Shown here one piece after another: positions 2,252 to 20,750 of a stretch of 23,107 nt of DNA. The DNA lies in IMG/VR virus record IMGVR_UViG_3300000228_000304, positions 1 through 23,107 of that record; one strand, written 5' to 3'. The notes below the pieces were generated by a model. The model was given only the letters and a program-made list of their open reading frames with translations. It ran no database searches and was not told the DNA's origin. Source of the stretch: a virus. Made by a program: the position numbers and the translations under genes. The stretch's first letter is position 1, and each line of letters begins with the position of its first letter.

Positions 2252-3727
2252 ATGATTATGAAAAAAATGTCAAACCAAACAAAATTAATAATTCAATTAT
2301 TATCAGAATATAATGATTATGATGGTGTAATTGAAGAATTAGAAGAAAAATGAATTCAAATAACAGTGAAGAAATTAAGAGATTATAAATATCAATACAA
2401 AGAAGAAATAAATAGAATTAAAAATGAAGATAATATATCAGAATTAAATAATCACTTCAAAAAAGAAGCAAGTGGTTATGATATAGACAAAAATACAAAT
2501 GAATATATTATCACTTATAATAGAGTAAATAGTATTACTGGAGAGGAAGAGCCAATAACTATAAAACTTGATATTGATTTAGTTGATAATATGATGAGAG
2601 ATTTTAGTTTATACTGAAATAACTTCACTCAAAAACAAATAATTAGAAAGTATAGTTTAGATCCACATACATGGAATGTTTTGAAATGAAGATTTAGTAT
2701 GTATAAACAATCAAACATATTTACAGATTATACTTATGAAAAGTCAAGTGAATGAGATATTTATGATGCTATATCAGAAAGTTTTGATAGTAAATATTGA
2801 AAGAAGAATGATATTACTGAAATATATGACAAAGCATTTAATAAGAAAGCGGAGGAAGCATTAAAATTAAAATATTATACAGACAGTGTTATTTCATACA
2901 TAAATGATACATTACAAGTAAAACCTGTAAAATATAAAGAATTTGTATGAAAGAAAAAAGTATGAACTACTCCAGTCTATGTATCAAGTGATTATCACTT
3001 TTGAGAAGACGATGATGATATATTAGAAGAAAGAATGAAAACTTTATTTTGACATATGATTAATGAAGATGTAAAACACTTAACATGGTTTAGTTTATGA
3101 GATTTAGGTGAAAATTTCTTGGTTGAAGGTATGCATAGCGGTCAAATACAAAGAATGAAAACACATTGATTTGAATTAGTTCAAAAAATTACAAGTATTT
3201 TCGTTTCAGGTATAAAAAGTATAATAGATAATTGACATACATTACATATAGAGTGGCAAGGAGGTAATCATGATAGAACAGGTAAAACTAATGATATGGA
3301 TCGTGAAAGAACATGGGCTTTAGTAATAGGAGAATTAATACAAGCATATTTAACTGAATATATCAATAAAGGGTTATTAACGTTCAATAATGAGATTAAA
3401 CCAACAAATGTGATATGTTTAGAAGAAGTAAAGACAGTAATTATATGAAATCATGGTGATTGAGCTTGGGTGAAAAAGAATACACATGAGATTATATCAT
3501 TATATGGTAAAGGTTCAGAATATTACAATATAATAGTTGAAGGTGATAAACACCATTTTAGTGTAAAACAAGATACAAACTCTATACGTATTATTACAGC
3601 TAGTGTAAAATCTGGAGGTCAATATGCTGAAGATATAATATATAAAAATTCTATTGCTTGATATACAAAAATATCATTTAATGAATATAATACACCTATA
3701 GTTGAATTAAGAACATTTGGAATATAA
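2252..3727 (+). CDS. Helix-turn-helix plus metallophosphoesterase protein (491 aa)
   Basis: Calcineurin-like phosphoesterases use two metals to hydrolyse phosphate esters; phage members often act on DNA ends or nucleotides, but the substrate here is unknown. Visible motifs in order: DxH in SSDYHFG (D247, H249), GDLGE (283-287, where the family usually has GDxxD), GNHD (338-341), GNHGD (399-403, H401) and GDKHH (431-435). The first ~60 residues look like a helix-turn-helix (VIEELEEKGIQITVKKLRDY), and about 120-160 looks like a second one (NFTQKQIIRKYSLDPHTWNVLKGRF), suggesting a DNA-bound enzyme. Many glycines are TGA, including G251 after DYHF, G283 of GDLGE and G399 of the GNHGD motif. It follows the early genes by 22 bases and is the only enzyme in the left arm. 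Alternative ATGs at 2258 and 2267 are possible. Confidence 0.8.
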
Positions 3728-6170: not shown

Positions 6171-6569
6171 ATGTCAAAATTATTTATAACAAGTGAAGTT
6201 AATGGAACTTCTACTACTGTTAATGGAGTTGTTGCTACTGGTGATTTAGTTAAATTAGTTTCTGGAGTTGCTACGGTAACTACTGTTAATACTGATTTAA
6301 TACTTGGAGTTGCTCATTCTAATGATGGGACTTCTACAATTATAGATTTAATTAATGCTGGAGAGGAATATGTTATACCTACTTCTGCAATTACAACTAA
6401 TAATACTTTTGTTGCTGATGTTGCTGCTGGAAAAATGGCTTCTGTTTATTTTACAGGAACTGCTTTTACTTATGATGCTACTGGAAACACTTTATGTGGT
6501 TACTCTAATAGAAAAGTAAAAGATGGTTACGTAATTAGATTTGTGCCTGCTGTATTAGTTTTTTGCTAA
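6171..6569 (+). CDS. Head decoration-type protein (132 aa)
   Basis: Small Gly/Thr/Val-rich beta protein lying between scaffold and major capsid genes, the usual place of a capsid decoration or stabilising protein. The order VNGVVATGDLVKLVSGV, LILGVAHSNDGTS, then DLINAGEEYVIP is like DUF2190-type/lambda-D-like head proteins; family membership is a tentative inference. Unusually for this genome there is no TGA: all 12 glycines are GGN, so the frame is open in either code. The leader is pure A/T (AATAATAAAT before ATG). It probably shares a transcript with the capsid gene that starts 41 bases downstream. Confidence 0.65.
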   Translation: MSKLFITSEVNGTSTTVNGVVATGDLVKLVSGVATVTTVNTDLILGVAHSNDGTSTIIDLINAGEEYVIPTSAITTNNTFVADVAAGKMASVYFTGTAFTYDATGNTLCGYSNRKVKDGYVIRFVPAVLVFC

Positions 6570-6610: not shown

Positions 6611-7582
6611 ATGAATATATTAAGTGGAATTAAAATGACTTGAGATCTTGGTGCTTTAATTAAAGGTGTTGACGCTCAAATTCATCAAATATATAATGAC
6701 AATAAAAATTTATCTGAAAAGAAATATACAAAATATTTAAATGTATTATCTGGAGATGGAGCAAGATATAATGTTAAAAATATATCTGGAGCTTCTGTAT
6801 TGAAAAGTGTTGCTGAAAATGGTAAATTACAAGAATTGAATACTTACCTTGGGGCTGAAACTTCTTTCATATTTAAGAAATTTGGTTGAATAATTACTTT
6901 CACATCTGAAGCAATCGAAGATAATGCTTACGCAAGTGAAATGGAAGCTGTTAAAATATTAGCAGTAACTGGAGACGCTACTAAAGAAGTACATGCTGCT
7001 GAAATGTTAAGAACGGGTTGGTCTACAACTTCTAATACTGAATTTCCAATTTCTAAACCAACTGGTGTATCAAGATTGTTCTCAATCGCTCATACATTAG
7101 CAAACGGTGATACATTCTCTAATACATTAGCTAATTCTAATCCTTTATCTGCTGACGCACTTAAAGATATGAAAAAAATGTTAATGGAACAAAAGGCTGA
7201 TGATGGTAAATCTATGAGAAGTTCTGGTAAATTAATATTAATTGTTTCTCCTGCAAATGAAGATTTGGCCATGAGAATAGTTAATTCTGATTTAAGACAA
7301 GGAACTAATAATAATGATATCAATACATTGAAATGAATAGAAGTTGTTGTTGAACCACAATTATCATCTGTATTTGGAGGTAATGATACATCATACTTCT
7401 TGACTGATAAAGGTATGTCAAAATTAAGTCTTGTAAATAGAAAAGATTTTACTCTTGAAACTTCACCAGATTTTGAAACTAAAAACTTAAGAGCTTCTAT
7501 TGATGGTCGTTGGGCTGTTGGTTTCTCTGATGTTAGAGGTATTATAGGTTCAAAATGAGATGGATCAACTATTTCTATTTAA
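6611..7582 (+). CDS. Major capsid protein, HK97-like (323 aa)
   Basis: Main shell protein. Length and layout fit the HK97 fold: a basic N-terminal arm, a region after residue ~80 (YLGAETSFIFKKFGGIITFTSEAIEDNAYAS) that matches the way these proteins enter the P-domain ('treatment/tracker of early TSEAIEDNA' type), a long helix (ALKDMKKMLMEQKADDG) and a C-terminal A-domain (LILIVSPANEDLAMRIV, then GIEVVVEPQL, then RASIDGRWAVGFSDVRGII). The SPANEDLA and DGRWAVGFSDVR segments are what I weigh most. Only 4 of 28 glycines are TGA, against a majority in the tail genes, which suits a highly translated gene. It follows the scaffold and decoration genes and is closed by a strong terminator. Confidence 0.85.
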
Positions 7583-8067: not shown

Positions 8068-8589
8068 ATGTTAGCAGAAACAAAATCAATAACAGCATTA
8101 TCCATAGGTTGATTATTTGCGTATTTATGAATACCTGAAGAAGCGTTTTATCTTTTTGCCATATTGGTAATGATAGATACGTTTACATGATGGATAAAAT
8201 GATTTATACACAAAAATCTATCAAGCGTGACAGCTTTTAAATGAATTATAAGTAAAAGTATTATACTTATAATACCAATAGTAATTTGATTAATAATAAA
8301 ATTAGGAGGTTTTGATGAAGAATGAATAGTTATATCTTGATTTTTCTGAATTATATCACTTATAGAATGATACTCAATCTTATGAAATTTAATGGAAATA
8401 AAAACATGAAAGAAACAGTCAGAATTTGACGCTTTAGAGTTATTTTATAAATTATCACTTATAACATTACAAAAAAATATTGAAAGTTTATTAAAAAATA
8501 AAATGAACTATGATACAAAAATTATACAAACTAAAGAAATTGATTGAAAAAGCAAAAATTCAGAATGAGATATAGAATCTCAAAAATAA
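8068..8589 (+). CDS. Holin, phage holin_4 (Cph1-like) type (173 aa)
   Basis: Forms lesions in the cytoplasmic membrane at lysis and releases or enables the endolysin. Hydrophobic segments lie at about 10-35 (ALSIGGLFAYLGIP, YLFAILVMIDTF), 60-80 (IISKSIILIIPIVIGLIIK) and 86-107 (GIVISGFFGIISLIEGYSIL). The signature of the family is visible: MIDTFTG(W)IKG at 35-45, a Lys-Gly/Ser-Lys pair after the first loop (FKGIISKS), and E-G-Y-S-I-L-G-N near 100-107, matching 'E..SILEN'. The C-terminal 60 residues are charged and cytoplasmic. Glycines in membrane segments are nearly all TGA. The amidase is not adjacent: about 6.3 kb of adhesin genes separate them. Confidence 0.8.
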
Positions 8590-8598
8590 ATGTGAAAT

Positions 8599-8734
8599 AC
8601 TTGATTAGAAGTTGTATAAGAACACGTATAATATATATTGAATGATGTCAGGTTTATATTATTTAAGTGATAGAGAAGTAACACTAGATAAATCACCTAA
8701 TTTTTATACAAAATCTATTATGATTAATACTTAA
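8599..8734 (+). pseudogene. Relic of a tail-protein C-terminus (leader of fibre copy 1)
   Basis: Two out-of-register fragments survive: TGLEVV followed by TAA, then MMSGLYYLSDREVTLDKSPN (8642 onward, stop at 8734). 'GL...YYLSD...' is a frequent C-terminal pattern of phage tail and fibre proteins, so this looks like the frameshifted end of a lost gene. In copies 2 and 3 the same stretch reads MMSDLYYLNDRE, losing the Gly and Ser. Confidence 0.45.
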
Positions 8735-8751
8735 TTTTTAATAATAAAAAT

Positions 8752-9924
8752 ATGACACTAATATCAAATACTCAATATCCAAGCCCTGGTTGAGATCTAA
8801 TAATTGCTATTGAAACACATAATACTAATTCATGAGCTCATGAAAACATTCAAGATGATATTTCACAATTAAATTATCAACTTAACTTAACAAACTGAAA
8901 TGTTACTAACAAAGCAGACCAAGTAACAACTTATACAAAAACTGAAACAAATAATCTTTTAAATACTAAAGAAAATACAGTAAATAAATGAGTTGCTAAT
9001 TGATATGCTAGTCTTGATTTAAATTGAAAAATACCAAACTCACAAATAAATGATGTAATACTTTGACAGTTATATTATATGTGAGTTTATGATTTTTCAT
9101 CTTGACTTCCAACAGCAACAGAAAAAGGGCAATATTGGATATGTTCTATAGCTTGAAACTGATATGAAGTGGGAGATTGGGCTGCTTATAACTGAACTAC
9201 TTTTGATAAAGTAGACAATACTGATGCAGTAAGTTCAGTAGCTGGTAGAACTTGAAATGTAGTTTTAACTAAGACTGATGTTTGACTTGCTAATGTAGAC
9301 AATACAACAGACTTAAATAAGCCTATATCAACATTAACTCAAACAGCTTTAGATTGAAAAGCAAACCAATCTACAACATATACTAAAACTGAAACAAATA
9401 ATTTACTTGATTGAAGGGTAGCTAAAATATCTTCTACAGATAATGCAATAACTAGATTTGATTGAACTACTTGAGAGATACAAAATAGTAGTGTAATAAT
9501 AGATGATAATTGAAACTTAAATGCTAATAGTATTTCTACATCTATAGGATATGGTAGAATATTAACTAAATCAGGAACTACAGATTTACATTCTATGAGA
9601 GTACTCAATATTCCTTATATTGGTGGAGAAAGTGGTTCATTTACTTTTGACCCTGTATTAATATTTGGATTAAATCATCAAGGTGGTAGTGTTAGATTTG
9701 AAGTTAATAGTCGGGAAATGAAGCACTCATTTGGGTATATACAATGGAGAAATAATGGTGATGCTGGTGCTCCACTCAGCACAGGAGTTATTCAATATAT
9801 ATTATTAGATAATAATGGGGTAACTATATCTGTTTCAACAATTACTGATAGTAATACAATAAAAGTAGACATAGATGGTGTTCATACAGGCGAACACGGT
9901 TGGCAATGTAGAATAATAGCATAA
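8752..9924 (+). CDS. Tail fibre protein, copy 1 (390 aa)
   Basis: Adhesin of the virion. After MTLISNTQYPSPGG the shaft region carries standard tail-fibre motifs: TTYTKTETNNLL twice (about residues 59-71 and 205-217), and AVSSVAGRTGNVVLTKTDVG followed by LANVDNTTDLNKPIS and QTALDGKA, a linker seen in many phage fibres. A small Trp-containing domain (KGQYWICSIAGNGYEVGDW) lies between. From about residue 266 a compact beta-rich head follows (RVLNIPYIGGESGSFTF ... GEHGWQCRIIA). Codon use changes there: 19 of 23 glycines are TGA up to codon 254, then all 17 are GGN to the end. The head domain therefore looks imported. ATG chosen because the same start and leader precede all three fibre copies. 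Confidence 0.85.
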
Positions 9925-10536
9925 TAAATATAATTATGGAGTAATATCACAAAAAAATTTAGATAAAAGTATAACTTATGATGTTTGAACTACTACAACT
10001 AATATTAATTGAAATGCTTGACTTTGAATTTCAAAAGAAACAAATAATTAAAAATAATTTATAACCAATTTTTTATAATAAAAGATCATAATTAATTTTC
10101 TATTAATTTGATTTGAACCAGGATATTTTATTAAATACCTAACTCAGACTAAACACTGACTTATTTAACTATAAATCAAATAATAGAAGTAATCCTTTAT
10201 ATTTACAGACAATTACAAAATTAGAATTTAGATTTATTTAATGAAATATAAATATGAATTATTCTACTTTAGAAAATATATTAAGAACTGAACTATTAAA
10301 ATTTACTTGAGAAAAAGTTTATAAAAAAATAGTTTTAAATAAAATAAATTGGTATGATAATAAGTCCAGGAAAATAATAAGAGATTTTTAATATATAATA
10401 CAAAACATTTCTTTTCAGATACAGCATTTACCGCTTGAAAAACTGTAGTTTGGTAATTTATATAAAAGCTAAATGATATCAACAATAACAATCTTTTACA
10501 ACTTCAAGCACTACTATTACAATGACTTATATAGCA
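9925..10536 (+). pseudogene. Gene debris downstream of fibre copy 1 (612 bp)
   Basis: No complete gene. Fragments in different frames look like remains of tail proteins: QKNLDKSITYDVGTTTTNIN ending with a stop at about 10048; FEPGYFIKYLTQTKHGLI near 10117; FSDTAFTAGKTVVW with a stop near 10455; and TSSTTITMTYIATGLEVV crossing into copy 2. TGA-as-Gly is still evident, so the source genes used the same code. The 45-codon frame at 10254 is listed separately. Repeated exactly at 11863-12474. Confidence 0.5.
10254..10391 (+). CDS. Short frame within debris, doubtful gene (45 aa)
   Basis: ATG to TAA reading MNYSTLENILRTELLKFTGE then a lysine-rich end, with one TGA=Gly. It has the usual A/T leader with T before ATG. 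It is bounded on both sides by broken frames, so it may be the N-terminal stump of a lost gene rather than a working one. Confidence 0.3.
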
Positions 10537-10689
10537 ACTTGATTAGAAGTTGTATAAGAACGTGTATAATATATATTGAATGATGTCGGATTTATATTAT
10601 TTAAATGATAGAGAAGTAACACTAGATAAATCACCTAATTTTTATACAAAATCTATTATGATTAATACTTAATTTTTAATAATAAAAAT

Positions 10690-11862
10690 ATGACACTAAT
10701 ATCAAATACTCAATATCCAAGCCCTGGTTGAGATCTAATAATTGCTATTGAAACACATAATACTAATTCATGAGCTCATGAAAACATTCAAGATGATATT
10801 TCACAATTAAATTATCAACTTAACTTAACAAACTGAAATGTTACTAACAAAGCAGACCAAGTAACAACTTATACAAAAACTGAAACAAATAATCTTTTAA
10901 ATACTAAAGAAAATACAGTAAATAAATGAGTTGCTAATTGATATGCTAGTCTTGATTTAAATTGAAAAATACCAAACTCACAAATAAATGATGTAATACT
11001 TTGACAGTTATATTATATGTGAGTTTATGATTTTTCATCTTGACTTCCAACAGCAACAGAAAAAGGGCAATATTGGATATGTTCTATAGCTTGAAACTGA
11101 TATGAAGTGGGAGATTGGGCTGCTTATAACTGAACTACTTTTGATAAAGTAGACAATACTGATGCAGTAAGTTCAGTAGCTGGTAGAACTTGAAATGTAG
11201 TTTTAACTAAGACTGATGTTTGACTTGCTAATGTAGACAATACAACAGACTTAAATAAGCCTATATCAACATTAACTCAAACAGCTTTAGATTGAAAAGC
11301 AAACCAATCTACAACATATACTAAAACTGAAACAAATAATTTACTTGATTGAAGGGTAGCTAAAATATCTTCTACAGATAATGCAATAACTAGATTTGAT
11401 TGAACTACTTGAGAGATACAAAATAGTAGTGTAATAATAGATGATAATTGAAACTTAAATGCTAATAGTATTTCTACATCTATAGGATATGGTAGAATAT
11501 TAACTAAATCAGGAACTACAGATTTACATTCTATGAGAGTACTCAATATTCCTTATATTGGTGGAGAAAGTGGTTCATTTACTTTTGACCCTGTATTAAT
11601 ATTTGGATTAAATCATCAAGGTGGTAGTGTTAGATTTGAAGTTAATAGTCGGGAAATGAAGCACTCATTTGGGTATATACAATGGAGAAATAATGGTGAT
11701 GCTGGTGCTCCACTCAGCACAGGAGTTATTCAATATATATTATTAGATAATAATGGGGTAACTATATCTGTTTCAACAATTACTGATAGTAATACAATAA
11801 AAGTAGACATAGATGGTGTTCATACAGGCGAACACGGTTGGCAATGTAGAATAATAGCATAA
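10690..11862 (+). CDS. Tail fibre protein, copy 2 (390 aa)
   Basis: Same sequence as the fibre at 8752-9924, at an offset of 1938, including the TGA-rich shaft and the TGA-free C-terminal head domain. Two identical genes could raise fibre dosage or be a transient intermediate of unequal recombination. Perfect identity over about 1.2 kb indicates a very recent event or continuing gene conversion; a collapsed or over-expanded repeat in assembly is an alternative. Confidence 0.85.
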
Positions 11863-12474
11863 TAAATATAATTATGGAGTAATATCACAAAAAAATTTAG
11901 ATAAAAGTATAACTTATGATGTTTGAACTACTACAACTAATATTAATTGAAATGCTTGACTTTGAATTTCAAAAGAAACAAATAATTAAAAATAATTTAT
12001 AACCAATTTTTTATAATAAAAGATCATAATTAATTTTCTATTAATTTGATTTGAACCAGGATATTTTATTAAATACCTAACTCAGACTAAACACTGACTT
12101 ATTTAACTATAAATCAAATAATAGAAGTAATCCTTTATATTTACAGACAATTACAAAATTAGAATTTAGATTTATTTAATGAAATATAAATATGAATTAT
12201 TCTACTTTAGAAAATATATTAAGAACTGAACTATTAAAATTTACTTGAGAAAAAGTTTATAAAAAAATAGTTTTAAATAAAATAAATTGGTATGATAATA
12301 AGTCCAGGAAAATAATAAGAGATTTTTAATATATAATACAAAACATTTCTTTTCAGATACAGCATTTACCGCTTGAAAAACTGTAGTTTGGTAATTTATA
12401 TAAAAGCTAAATGATATCAACAATAACAATCTTTTACAACTTCAAGCACTACTATTACAATGACTTATATAGCA
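11863..12474 (+). pseudogene. Gene debris downstream of fibre copy 2 (612 bp)
   Basis: Exact second copy of 9925-10536, with the same out-of-frame tail-protein fragments and no complete gene apart from the doubtful 45-codon frame at 12192-12329. Confidence 0.5.
12192..12329 (+). CDS. Short frame within debris, second copy, doubtful (45 aa)
   Basis: Identical to 10254-10391 at an offset of 1938. Same reservations: probably the stump of a lost gene. Confidence 0.3.
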
Positions 12475-12669
12475 ACTTGATTAGAAGTTGTATAAGAACG
12501 TGTATAATATATATTGAATGATGTCGGATTTATATTATTTAAATGATAGAGAAGTAACACTAGATAAATCACCTAATTTTTATACAAAATCTATTATGAT
12601 TAATACTTAATTTTTAATAATAAAAATATGACACTAATATCAAATACTCAATATCCAAGCCCTGGTTGA
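12475..12669 (+). repeat. Partial third copy of the tandem unit (195 bp)
   Basis: Repeats the first 195 bases of the unit: the relic leader, the A/T-rich start region and the first 14 codons of the fibre gene (MTLISNTQYPSPGG). It then departs into a different fibre gene. This segment is the likely site of the unequal crossover that made the duplication. Confidence 0.95.
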
Positions 12670-13398
12670 AGCCCTGGTTGAAGCCCTGGTTGAAGCCCTG
12701 GTTGAAGCCCTGGTTGAAGCATTGAGATTTATGAAAATTTTACTAATTGAGTATCATCACTTGACACATCTTCTTTTTTTTGAACTACAATAGCAAGTTC
12801 AGGTTGAGCATATTGAACTATAAATAGTAATCTTTATGAATCTAATATTGAACCATGAAATACATTTTTTTGATGTTCAAGTTTTTTAAGTAATTGAACT
12901 GCTAGTGAACTTAATACAGCATATATATCTACGTTTGTAAATAACAGATATATAAAATTAAATACATTGAGTTTATTTGAAATTGAAAATAGAGTTGCTT
13001 TTTTACAAAGCAATAATTCCAAATCTCAAAATATAAGATTTTGATTAACTAATTCTACAAGTATATCAACATCTAATACTGATTCTATATATATAGAATA
13101 TATATCTGAAACTTGAGTATTAAGTTTAATATCAAAATCAGCATGAAATAAAGTCTCTGTAATATTAAAAACTTTTACTAATTCTGAAGCAAAAATATTT
13201 TCTAAAATAAAAATCACATATGATTGAACTTCTATAAAATGATACATTAATAATGTATTATTATGAACTATTACAACTAATATTCCAATAGATGTATGAC
13301 TTAGATATATACCATATCAAATATATATATCTAAGTCAAGTGTTATTAGTCGGTCATTCCTTGATTACTTTTACGCAAAATTCAACTTTAACTACTAA
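12628..13398 (+). CDS. Lectin-like tail fibre with SPGG repeat linker (256 aa)
   Basis: Shares leader and first 14 residues with the two upstream fibres, then diverges. Residues 11-30 are five SPGG repeats, a flexible linker. The rest reads as a concanavalin A-like jelly roll: SIEIYENFTNGVSSLDTS at the start, ISTFVNNRYIKLNTL, then KIKITYDGTSIKGYINNVLL (a typical lectin/LamG strand pair, 'YDG..I.GYINN..LG'), and a final SFLDYFYAKFNFNY like the closing strand of such domains. Glycines are mostly TGA along the whole length, unlike the head domain of the upstream fibres. Probably a receptor-binding protein with carbohydrate specificity. The next fibre gene begins 12 bases later. Confidence 0.75.
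12658..12717 (+). repeat. 12-bp tandem repeat, five units
   Basis: AGCCCTGGTTGA repeated five times without error; each unit encodes Ser-Pro-Gly-Gly, with the second Gly as TGA. The upstream fibres have a single unit at the same place. The unit length is a multiple of three, so gain or loss changes linker length without shifting the frame. Confidence 0.97.
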
Positions 13399-14114: not shown

Positions 14115-14891
14115 ATGCTACATGCACTTTGATTTGTAATAAAACAAAAAATAAAAGAAATAATAACTGAGGTGATTACAAGTGTTAGGGTTATAAGTCC
14201 TACCTATTCACCAGATTGAAATTATATAGTATATACAAATGGTTCAAATTGAAAATTATATAAAAAGGATGCTAATGATGTTAGTGATTGATCTGTTATT
14301 ACATCAGTATGATGATATTTTCCTACCTATTCACCAGATTGAAATTATATAGTATATAAAAGTAGTTCAAATTGAAAATTATATAAAAAGGATGCTAATG
14401 ATGTTAGTGATTGAATACAAATTACAAATCATATATCAAACTTCCCACAATATTCTCCAGATTGAACTTATATTATATACTTTGATAATACTCCTCTTTT
14501 AAGAAAGAAATTATCAAGTGATACAAATAATTGAGATATAATAGTACCTTGAAAATTAGCTTCATATTGAACTTATTCACCAGATTGAAATTATATAGTA
14601 TATACAAATAATACTGATTGAAATGTATTATATAAAAAGAGTTCAACTGATGCAACTGTATGAGTTCAAATAAGTAATAACCAAAGTCGATGAGTTAATA
14701 CATACTATGATAATTGAAATTTTATGCTTTATGAGTTTAACTCAAATATATATAAGAAAAATCCAAATGATACTTGAAATTGATCTATATGGATCAATAA
14801 TGCCACAATGTATGATACTTTTAATAATCAGTATATAATATATAGAAACTCTTCTGATCAAGGAAGATTATATAGAACTAATAATATATAA
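14115..14891 (+). CDS. Six-bladed propeller protein, TolB/PD40-like (258 aa)
   Basis: After a short amphipathic N-terminus (MLHALGFVIKQKIKEIITEV) come six repeats with a period of 41 residues: SPDG at 32-35, 73-76, 114-117 and 155-158, with weaker equivalents near 197 (YYDNGNFMLY) and 238 (NNQYIIY). Each repeat reads YSPDGNYIVY...NGKLYKK, the PD40/WD40-like blade of TolB. Six blades make a closed propeller, so nearly the whole protein is one domain. Such propellers bind proteins or sugars; among fibre genes this suggests a receptor-binding tip, which is inference. All four SPDG glycines are TGA. Blades one and two are almost identical in DNA, showing recent internal duplication. Confidence 0.8.
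14199..14291 (+). repeat. Propeller blade repeat, copy 1 (93 bp)
   Basis: Nearly identical to 14322-14414, at an offset of 123 bases (41 codons). The visible differences cluster at one place (ACAAATGGT against AAAAGTAGT). A third, more diverged match starts near 14574. Confidence 0.9.
14322..14414 (+). repeat. Propeller blade repeat, copy 2 (93 bp)
   Basis: Second copy of 14199-14291, encoding the second blade of the propeller protein. Near-identity at DNA level means blade number could change by recombination. Confidence 0.9.
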
Positions 14892-14902
14892 CATATAAAA
14901 AT

Positions 14903-15520
14903 ATGAATATTCTTGAAACTAAAAAAAAGAACTGAAAAAATACTTGTAAATACATAATGCTTCACCACACAGCGATGTGAAGTGATAGAAATTGATTACA
15001 GGCAGCAAATTTACTATCAACTGGTGAAAAAGAAGTATCTTGCCATTACGTTGTGTGAAAAGATTGAACTGTATGGAAAATAGGAGAAGATACTGATAGA
15101 TTATGGCACGCTTGAAGTTGAAATTATGATTGAATAACTGATATGAACAGCAACGCTATATGAATTGAAGTTGATAGTAATTGAATTGACTTTACAAAAG
15201 AACAATTTAATATTACATTAAAACTTGTAAAAGATTTAATATTAAAATATAAAATATCAGATAAAAATGTAATAAAACATGCTGATTATACAGCAAGAAA
15301 ATGGGATATTTGAGATAATTTCTTCAAATTTTGTTGAAAAGATATAAATGATTTCAGAAAATTACTTATAATTAATGAAGATGAATGATTTTATGAAAAA
15401 ATATTTAATGAAAAATATAATTGAGTTTCAAGTATTTATTCAGATATGAATACATCGAAAGAAAAATTATGAGATGTTGCTTTCTTTGTAGCACTATGAC
15501 TTGAAAGACTTAAAAAATAA
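14903..15520 (+). CDS. Endolysin: N-acetylmuramoyl-L-alanine amidase (205 aa)
   Basis: Amidase_2 (T7-lysozyme/PGRP-like) zinc enzyme that cuts the bond between muramic acid and L-alanine in peptidoglycan at lysis. Visible: MLHHTAMGS with zinc ligand H21, SCHYVVGKDGTVWKIGED at 46-63, RLWHAGSG (66-73), NAIGIEVDSNG (84-94), FTKEQ (97-101), VIKHADYTARKWDIGDNF with ligand H126 and D135. The last ~45 residues (GFYEKIFNEKYNGVSSIYSD onward) form a small extra helical domain, perhaps a cell-wall anchor. This gene is the best proof of the code: 16 of 18 glycines are TGA, including those in KDGT, HAGSG, IGIEV and DIGD, where the family has glycine, while W58, W68 and W134 are TGG. No signal peptide, so export relies on the holin, which is encoded about 6.3 kb upstream. 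Confidence 0.92.
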
Positions 15521-18935: not shown

Positions 18936-20750
18936 TTATCATCTTCTTTCATTTATTGTAGTTCAAGTTAATGGATCTATATATGTTATATAATCATCTT
19001 CATCATCTTGTTTTTGACTATTTTCAATAAAGTTTGATTTACTATCAAGCATTAATACTCATTGTGTTAAAGCATCAGGAAAATCATCATGTCTCATTCA
19101 TGGGAATTTAATTAATTCACTTTCAAGAGTTTTAAAATTATCATTCCAACCAGTATCATTTTTTGATAAGAAATAAATCTTTCAATTAAAAAATCTTGGT
19201 TGTAATGTATATTTTATACGATCTTTTTTATTTTCTCTTGGAATATACTCATAAACCATATAATACATATCATGCTTTTTCATATAATCAAGGAAATCTT
19301 CCTTAAATTTAGTTTGTTGCTTATTTATAGATACTTGTTCTATTGATATGAATGAAGTATTCAATCAACGTTGCTTCCAATAATTTATAGTATTAAATAT
19401 ATTGTTATATGCTTCACTTGGAGCAATCTTACCTCCAACTATATCAATTACATAGAAATCTTTTGTTATTTTATTTTTTCACATAATAACACCTACAGTA
19501 TCATCTGATAATTTATTAGTAGATTGTGCTGGATCTATAAACATTCACCAAGTAAAATCTGAAAATGACATATTTATTTCTCATTTCTCAAGTTCTGAAC
19601 TTAAAAAATACTTAAATTGTTCTTTTTTGAATAATTGTCAAGAAGCTTTAATAGGGCTTTGTTGATAGATAGCCTCAAAATCATATTCTCCAACTTCTAA
19701 TCTGAATTCTTCATAATTTTCAAGTGAAAACTTCTCTTTCCATAATTGTTCTCCAGTATCTTCATTAATTGCCTGGTAAATAATAGTTTTGAATGGAATA
19801 GCGCCTTCAGTTTCTTTTTGTTCTATATATCAAGCAATATCATCTACTTGCCAACGAGTCATTAATAGTATTTCTGCAGGTTGGTATATATCATTTATAT
19901 CATCCAATCAATCATTTGTTTTATTAGTTGTTTCTTTACGTCTTGTCCAAGTAGATTTGTACCAATTTTCAACAGTGTCTCTTATGGTTTGACTTTCAGC
20001 GTCTTTACGACCAGAATATGGATCATCTAACAGTAATATATTAGCACCAACACCGTCCAAATGTCATCCAACACCTATTGTATCAATATATCATAGTCTA
20101 TTTTTATGTAAAAACTCTATTTTATCTTCATTTTCTTTCTTAATATCAAGATTATTGAATACACTTTTATACCATTTTGAGTTTATATTCATACGAATAG
20201 CAGATATACATTGTTTTGGAACTTTTGTAGTAGCGCCTCATAATAGTAACTTAAACCAAGGTCTATTTCATATAACAAACATTGGGAATAATATACTTGT
20301 AATAAATGTCTTTCAATGACGAACAGGCATATGTAATCTTAATCTTTGTGTGTTTCAATTAAATATATCTTGTAATTGTTGTATCAAATCATAATGAAAA
20401 TCTCATAATGGAAATTCAAACTTGTTTTGAACCATATTTTCAATAGCAATTTCAACAAATGTTTTAAAATCACGTTTAGCAAGTTCATTTCTTGCGTTTT
20501 TTATCAGTAACGCTTCTTTTATTTGATTCGTTACTATATCATCCCACTCTGCATGGAGTTCATTTACTCTTTCTTTCATAGTGTTTGCTTTTAATTGTCA
20601 TAAAAATACTTTCATTTCATTCACACTTCTTTTATTTTGTTTTTTTATATAATCTTTATCTAATTGATTGTATTTTATAGATTGTAGTTGAACTCACTTT
20701 CATGCCAATTTTTCAGTGAATTCAACTCTTTCTTTTGGTTTTTTAATCAT
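18936..20750 (-). CDS. terL: Terminase large subunit (604 aa)
   Basis: Motor and nuclease of DNA packaging: ATPase pumps DNA into the prohead and the nuclease cuts the concatemer. Walker A MPVRHGKT (141-148), Walker B ILLLDDP (238-244), the EAIYQQSP region (359-366) typical between the domains, and an RNase H-like nuclease with D406 (FIDPA), E471 (SIEQ) and the HDDFPDA motif (554-560). Length is normal for the family. The glycine of Walker A is encoded inside RHGKT by TGA, as are many others, so the ATPase exists only if TGA is Gly. The start overlaps the end of the preceding gene by eight bases (ATGATTAA), indicating coupled translation. Last gene of the leftward operon. Presence of a terminase argues against a phi29-type packaging ATPase despite the inverted termini. 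Confidence 0.95.

Follow-up and report, generated by a model that had tools for sequence, protein, structure and literature searches.

The window, here the whole stretch of 23,107 bases that was analysed, is a virus record, a metagenomic contig with 24% G+C. Its genes are open only if TGA codes for an amino acid (translation table 25), and about 290 in-frame TGA codons are spread across them. When the shaft of its tail fibre is aligned with homologues translated in the standard code, glycine stands opposite the TGA codons 489 times and the next most frequent residue, asparagine, 53 times. A reading of TGA as glycine is well supported by these alignments. The window holds a tailed-phage gene set, including a terminase (18936-20750, phrog_38, 3e-77), a holin (8068-8589, PHROG profile match), an amidase (14903-15520, profile match) and, on the plus strand, a major capsid protein (6611-7582, Pfam Phage_capsid_4, E=9.5e-11). 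A small protein, decoration-like by its position, is encoded on the same strand before the capsid gene (6171-6569). There is no tRNA gene in the window. No close relatives of the phage were found by a terminase search, nor by the capsid protein in other TGA=Gly contigs.

Three fibre genes follow one another on the plus strand, as do their leaders, parts and repeat units. The first (8752-9924) is a table 25 open reading frame of 390 amino acids, with a shaft that matches PHROG minor tail and tail fibre families. The second (10690-11862) is identical to it, its head beginning at about 11479. The third (12628-13398) has the same 14-residue anchor, followed by (SPGG) repeats and a different body; its last 12 glycines are all TGA. 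The SPGG repeats, at 12628-12720, come directly after the shared anchor, with one TGA glycine in each repeat.

The first two genes lie in a perfect tandem duplication of 1938 bases, with units at 8668-10605 and 10606-12543; the run of identity extends from 8668-10731 against 10606-12669, with a period of 1938. Each gene begins with a common leader. Leader 1, together with the first 14 codons (MTLISNTQYPSPGG, 8599-8793), is about 97% identical to the two others until the sequences diverge after codon 14, and differs from them at five bases. Leader 2 (10537-10731) and leader 3 (12475-12669), the one before the different fibre, are identical to each other. This pattern is what would be expected from unequal crossing-over between the leaders of neighbouring cassettes, and the repeat itself may be either a true duplication or an artefact of assembly. 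A short coding-like relic at 10489-10554, QSFTTSSTTITMTYIATGLEVV*, runs into leader 2, and leader 1 is likewise preceded by an end of the form ...TGLEVV*.

The first fibre gene can be divided into an N-terminal anchor and shaft (codons 1-254, 8752-9513), a module joint (codons 227-263, STDNAITRFDGTTGEIQNSSVIIDDNGNLNANS, 9430-9540) and a head domain (codons from about 264 to 390, 9541-9924). Its glycine codons change abruptly between these parts. Up to codon 254, 19 of the 23 glycines are TGA and 4 are GGN, and in codons 255-390 none is TGA and all 17 are GGN (GGT 9, GGA 5, GGG 2, GGC 1). The first-pass annotation had reported 19 of 23 and then 17 of 17 GGN, and these counts were reproduced exactly (Fisher p=6.9e-8). 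A change-point test places the optimal single break behind codon 254, with a log-likelihood gain of 17.05; none of 1,000,000 shuffles gave a gain as large, so that the permutation p is about 1e-6 or less. The background for comparison is small, namely eight TGA=Gly phages (the window and seven others). Across their genes the largest within-gene gain is the 17.0 found here, and the next largest is 5.6. Among 80 gene calls with at least 17 glycines, a run of 17 successive non-TGA glycines occurs only in this fibre, counted twice with its copy, and in two capsid genes. The switch is thus real and strong. It had also been noted in the gene at 10690, where it falls at 11452; the pattern is indeed the same there, but the copy lies inside the perfect 1938-base repeat and therefore adds no independent support.

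The place of the switch coincides with a module border. Residues 55-260 match three PHROG families of minor tail or tail fibre proteins, phrog_13892, phrog_5207 and phrog_35419, with E-values from 4e-36 to 9e-17, and the head lies outside all three. Homologues of residues 75-254 occur in hundreds of phages (780 records), mostly of the standard code and of far higher G+C. Past codon 254 the alignments diverge, so that homology stops at the joint. Residues 223/227-254 match phage contigs, and the joint peptide, codons 227-258 in this comparison, is 73-86% identical in contigs L071-L073, L075-L078 and L082, some of which have no other match to the shaft. The codon switch falls at a joint peptide common to otherwise unrelated fibres.

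One consequence of these matches is that the shaft module itself has crossed code borders, since a shaft rich in TGA has homologues in phages of other codes, and that it is now fully adapted to TGA. That modules cross this border can thus be seen without any lack of TGA, from the hundreds of phages of other codes with homologues of the TGA-rich shaft. An example is provided by three phages, L023, L024 and L025 (fibre from 8594; GC 0.286), which carry the same shaft. Their TGA codons stand at sites such as YIGTwDII, KLNwEF and EEPwTD and their glycines are all GGN; judged by these sites, TGA appears best read as tryptophan. Counting these AT-rich, apparently TGA=Trp phages, the shaft occurs under three codes or more. 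Their codon use outside glycine fits the model of the window; of the standard-code loci with G+C above 30%, the majority fall outside it. With a donor of such composition one would expect precisely what the head shows, namely codons that are normal except for glycine.

No relatives of the head were found in any of the collections searched. Peptide patterns drawn from the entire head and from each of two halves gave none in IMG/VR; such scans may miss relatives that are distant or contain TGA. The only pattern match there, L118, arose from a chance seed and has no open frame. Patterns gave none among 84,980 genomes, tblastn none in phages and plasmids, six-frame searches none in 395, 398 and 296 genomes, and phmmer none among all retrieved loci. 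Likewise, the head has no match in PDB, Pfam, PHROGs or NCBIfam, and none of the three shaft families covers it. A blastn match in phages spans only 61 bases and belongs to an unrelated crAss-like replication region. The first-pass annotation took the head for a beta-rich domain of receptor-binding type, which is a putative assignment; structure models of it are of low confidence (pLDDT 35 for the head alone, about 45 when the alignment of the shaft was included, range about 35-50).

Apart from glycine, the head does not look foreign. The first-pass annotation had described it as less AT-rich and as using codons that are rare elsewhere, and neither description holds. The GC3 of the head is 0.124, compared with 0.094 for the shaft and 0.07-0.23 for other genes, and its higher total GC arises largely because GGN stands where TGA would. 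Rare codons are limited to CTC (2), CGG (1) and AGC (1), of which AGC is found in the shaft too. The non-glycine codons cannot be told apart from those used elsewhere in the window (z=+0.71, G-test p=0.13), which rules out a foreign composition. Thus, either the donor was about as AT-rich as the phage or the third positions have already drifted. The doubled stop TAATAA at the end of the head is no mark of origin, as three other genes of the window carry it too.

The best explanation for the switch is that the head was imported from a genome in which TGA does not mean glycine, and this is probably what happened. The proposal had been made in the first-pass annotation; the transfer across a code border survives as the best remaining reading, while the foreign composition once cited for it does not, and the searches returned no relative. 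The case for a transfer is built on the exclusion of rival explanations and on a relic behind the gene. Since no head relative was found, the donor and its code can only be inferred.

One rival explanation, an unlikely one, is that no transfer took place and that the head shuns TGA by selection on codon use, TGA being decoded more slowly or less accurately. Avoidance of TGA is a genuine phenomenon in phages of this code. Seven further TGA=Gly phages were retrieved by a DNA pattern encoding the shaft motif VGLxNVDN with TGA, since relatives that are distant or contain TGA may escape a peptide scan, and were read whole. Across the eight phages the overall TGA share of glycines is 51-70%. The capsid genes, recognised via PHROGs or Pfam, have shares of 0-31%, the lowest or second-lowest in all eight phages among genes with at least 12 glycines (0/24, 1/14, 2/31, 4/24, 4/28, 7/33, 8/31 and 10/32). 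The 4/28 belongs to the capsid gene of the window; the others are at 13687-14730 in L106, 5-946 in L108, 6777-7724 in L110, 15781-16947 in L111, 8806-10038 in L113, 11942-12832 in L115 and 11835-12653 in L116. The gene at 6171-6569 (0/12) shares the avoidance and has a capsid-like codon bias; it and the capsid gene are TGA-poor genes of the window beyond those mentioned in the first-pass annotation.

Capsid genes also prefer ATC, TTC, TAC, CAC and TCT. A codon bias of this kind is usually tied to strong translation, and the avoidance of TGA together with this distinct bias, seen in all eight phages, suggests that translation selects against the reassigned codon. The head does not share the bias for ATC, TTC, TAC and TCT. 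A capsid-signature score, which compares capsid with other genes, excludes glycine and was computed leaving one out, averages +0.039 for capsid segments and is +0.056 for gene 6171, but is -0.068 for the head. None of 52 capsid segments is that low, and 45% of background segments are lower still. High expression is thus rejected as the reason for the missing TGA. In addition, the head and the TGA-rich shaft are a single product in one reading frame, so that both should be translated equally; inspection by eye revealed no internal start preceded by a ribosome-binding site.

Seven other TGA=Gly fibres keep TGA at their tips. A shared GGN pattern in TGA=Gly phages, which the first-pass annotation had named as evidence against a transfer, did not appear in these fibre genes, all of which have the shaft motif: none has a significant loss of TGA in the last 135 codons (p 0.1 to 1). 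These fibres share the shaft motif and have ends that are not homologous to the head, so the comparison addresses a habit of fibre tips and not the relatives of the head itself.

A second rival, equally improbable, is an exchange between TGA=Gly genomes, in which the head came from a TGA-poor gene or from a lineage with low TGA use. Genes of the first kind are known in such phages, as the capsid genes demonstrate, and the non-glycine codons of the head would suit an AT-rich TGA=Gly phage. With the share at its lowest observed value of 51%, however, the chance of finding no TGA among 17 glycines is about 5e-6, and the TGA-poor genes that were found are mostly capsid genes, with a codon signature that the head lacks.

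A different kind of exchange is that of a "bilingual" module, ever moving between phages of both codes, in which TGA is continually selected against while the other codons adapt to AT-rich genomes. This is a long shot. If true, it would explain the normal non-glycine codons and the absence of TGA better than recency alone, and would make tail tips a shared currency between phage pools separated by their codes.

That the head DNA of another organism was misjoined during assembly and the tandem duplication is false is very unlikely: a perfect 1938-base repeat is difficult to resolve when reads are short, and the virus contig is of metagenomic origin, but the reading frame is continuous across a joint that other phages use as well, TGA=Gly coding lies on both sides of the head, and the codon usage of the head agrees with that of the phage.

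Support for an import of the head comes from the sequence just behind its stop codon. An open frame shifted by +1 (KYNYGVISQKNLDKSITYDVGTTTTNINGNAGLGISKETNN*, 9926-10048, plus strand, with a second copy at 11864-11986 on the same strand) runs for 41 codons, and four of its five glycines are TGA. Its coding-likeness is 15.9 bits, a value reached by none of 1000 simulated intergenic regions. It is likely to be the stranded 3' end of an older head that was adapted to TGA. No homologue of it is recognisable, and its identity as the old head is therefore inferred.

In the model proposed for this fibre, the protein would be a mosaic. The cassettes of the TGA=Gly phage begin with the common leader and the 14-residue anchor, and the widespread shaft (codons from about 75 to 254) ends in the common joint peptide. 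Next, a head module some 380 bases long, from a genome that does not read TGA as glycine, would have taken the place of the domain behind the joint. The donor would have been about as AT-rich as the phage and would have used either the standard code or TGA=Trp. The normal non-glycine codons need such a donor, or else a drift of third positions faster than the gain of TGA. With its glycines all GGN and its end TAATAA, the head would be readable unaltered in the new host. If the replacement is recent, the head, a putative receptor-binding domain, would have yet to gain TGA. The 3' end of the old head would have been left out of frame downstream of the new stop. Finally, the whole cassette would have been duplicated in tandem, probably via unequal crossing-over between leaders.

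Mosaic tail fibres with exchangeable C-terminal domains are a known system, and the present fibre is like them in its conserved anchor and shaft, its variable tip, its duplicated cassettes and a joint peptide common to unrelated fibres. It differs in that the exchange is marked within the gene, with TGA as glycine before the joint and only GGN after it. Phages of Absconditabacteria and Gracilibacteria that read TGA as glycine have been described (Liu et al. 2023, PMC10746230; phage RSA-ATP1, PMC13059738). Such phages have dense in-frame TGA for glycine, an AT-rich genome and a tailed-phage gene set, as the window does. The sections consulted treat code use per whole genome and describe no split within a gene. 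PMC10746230 also describes phages without TGA whose predicted hosts are TGA=Gly bacteria. These code-11-compatible phages resemble the head in that their coding sequence lacks in-frame TGA and can be read under both codes; by that account TGA is absent genome-wide, whereas here it is absent from one domain of one gene. A literature search of partial coverage found no title or abstract on a switch of code usage inside a single gene.

A stop codon that has been reassigned can act as a built-in time mark: a segment incoming from another code is revealed by the absence of that codon, even where its composition passes for native. The fibre illustrates this clearly within one gene, and recoded phages could be scanned for domain swaps across code borders. 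Such scans would have to allow for the capsid genes, which avoid TGA in all eight phages, seemingly for another reason; a lack of TGA alone is therefore no proof of foreign origin. Gene flow across the border should be largely one-way, since a transfer from the standard code into a TGA=Gly genome needs no repair and the reverse meets stops.

Several minor features of the window may be added. Glycine use is mixed in the gene at 2252-3727, with TGA at 10 of 13 glycines and then at 5 of 21 (p=0.04), which is possibly a weaker mosaic. A beta-propeller-like protein with PD40 repeats at a spacing of 123 bases is encoded at 14115-14891 amid the tail genes. Codons CGA and CGG together occur only five times in the window, and the head has one of the five. 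CGG itself is found just twice, at codon 321 of 8752-9924, which is the codon in the head, and at codon 242 of 12628-13398, in both cases in the C-terminal part of a fibre. In Absconditabacteria, CGA and CGG are perhaps also reassigned, to tryptophan (PMC8629427); if the host is an absconditabacterium, these two fibre codons may be read as tryptophan.
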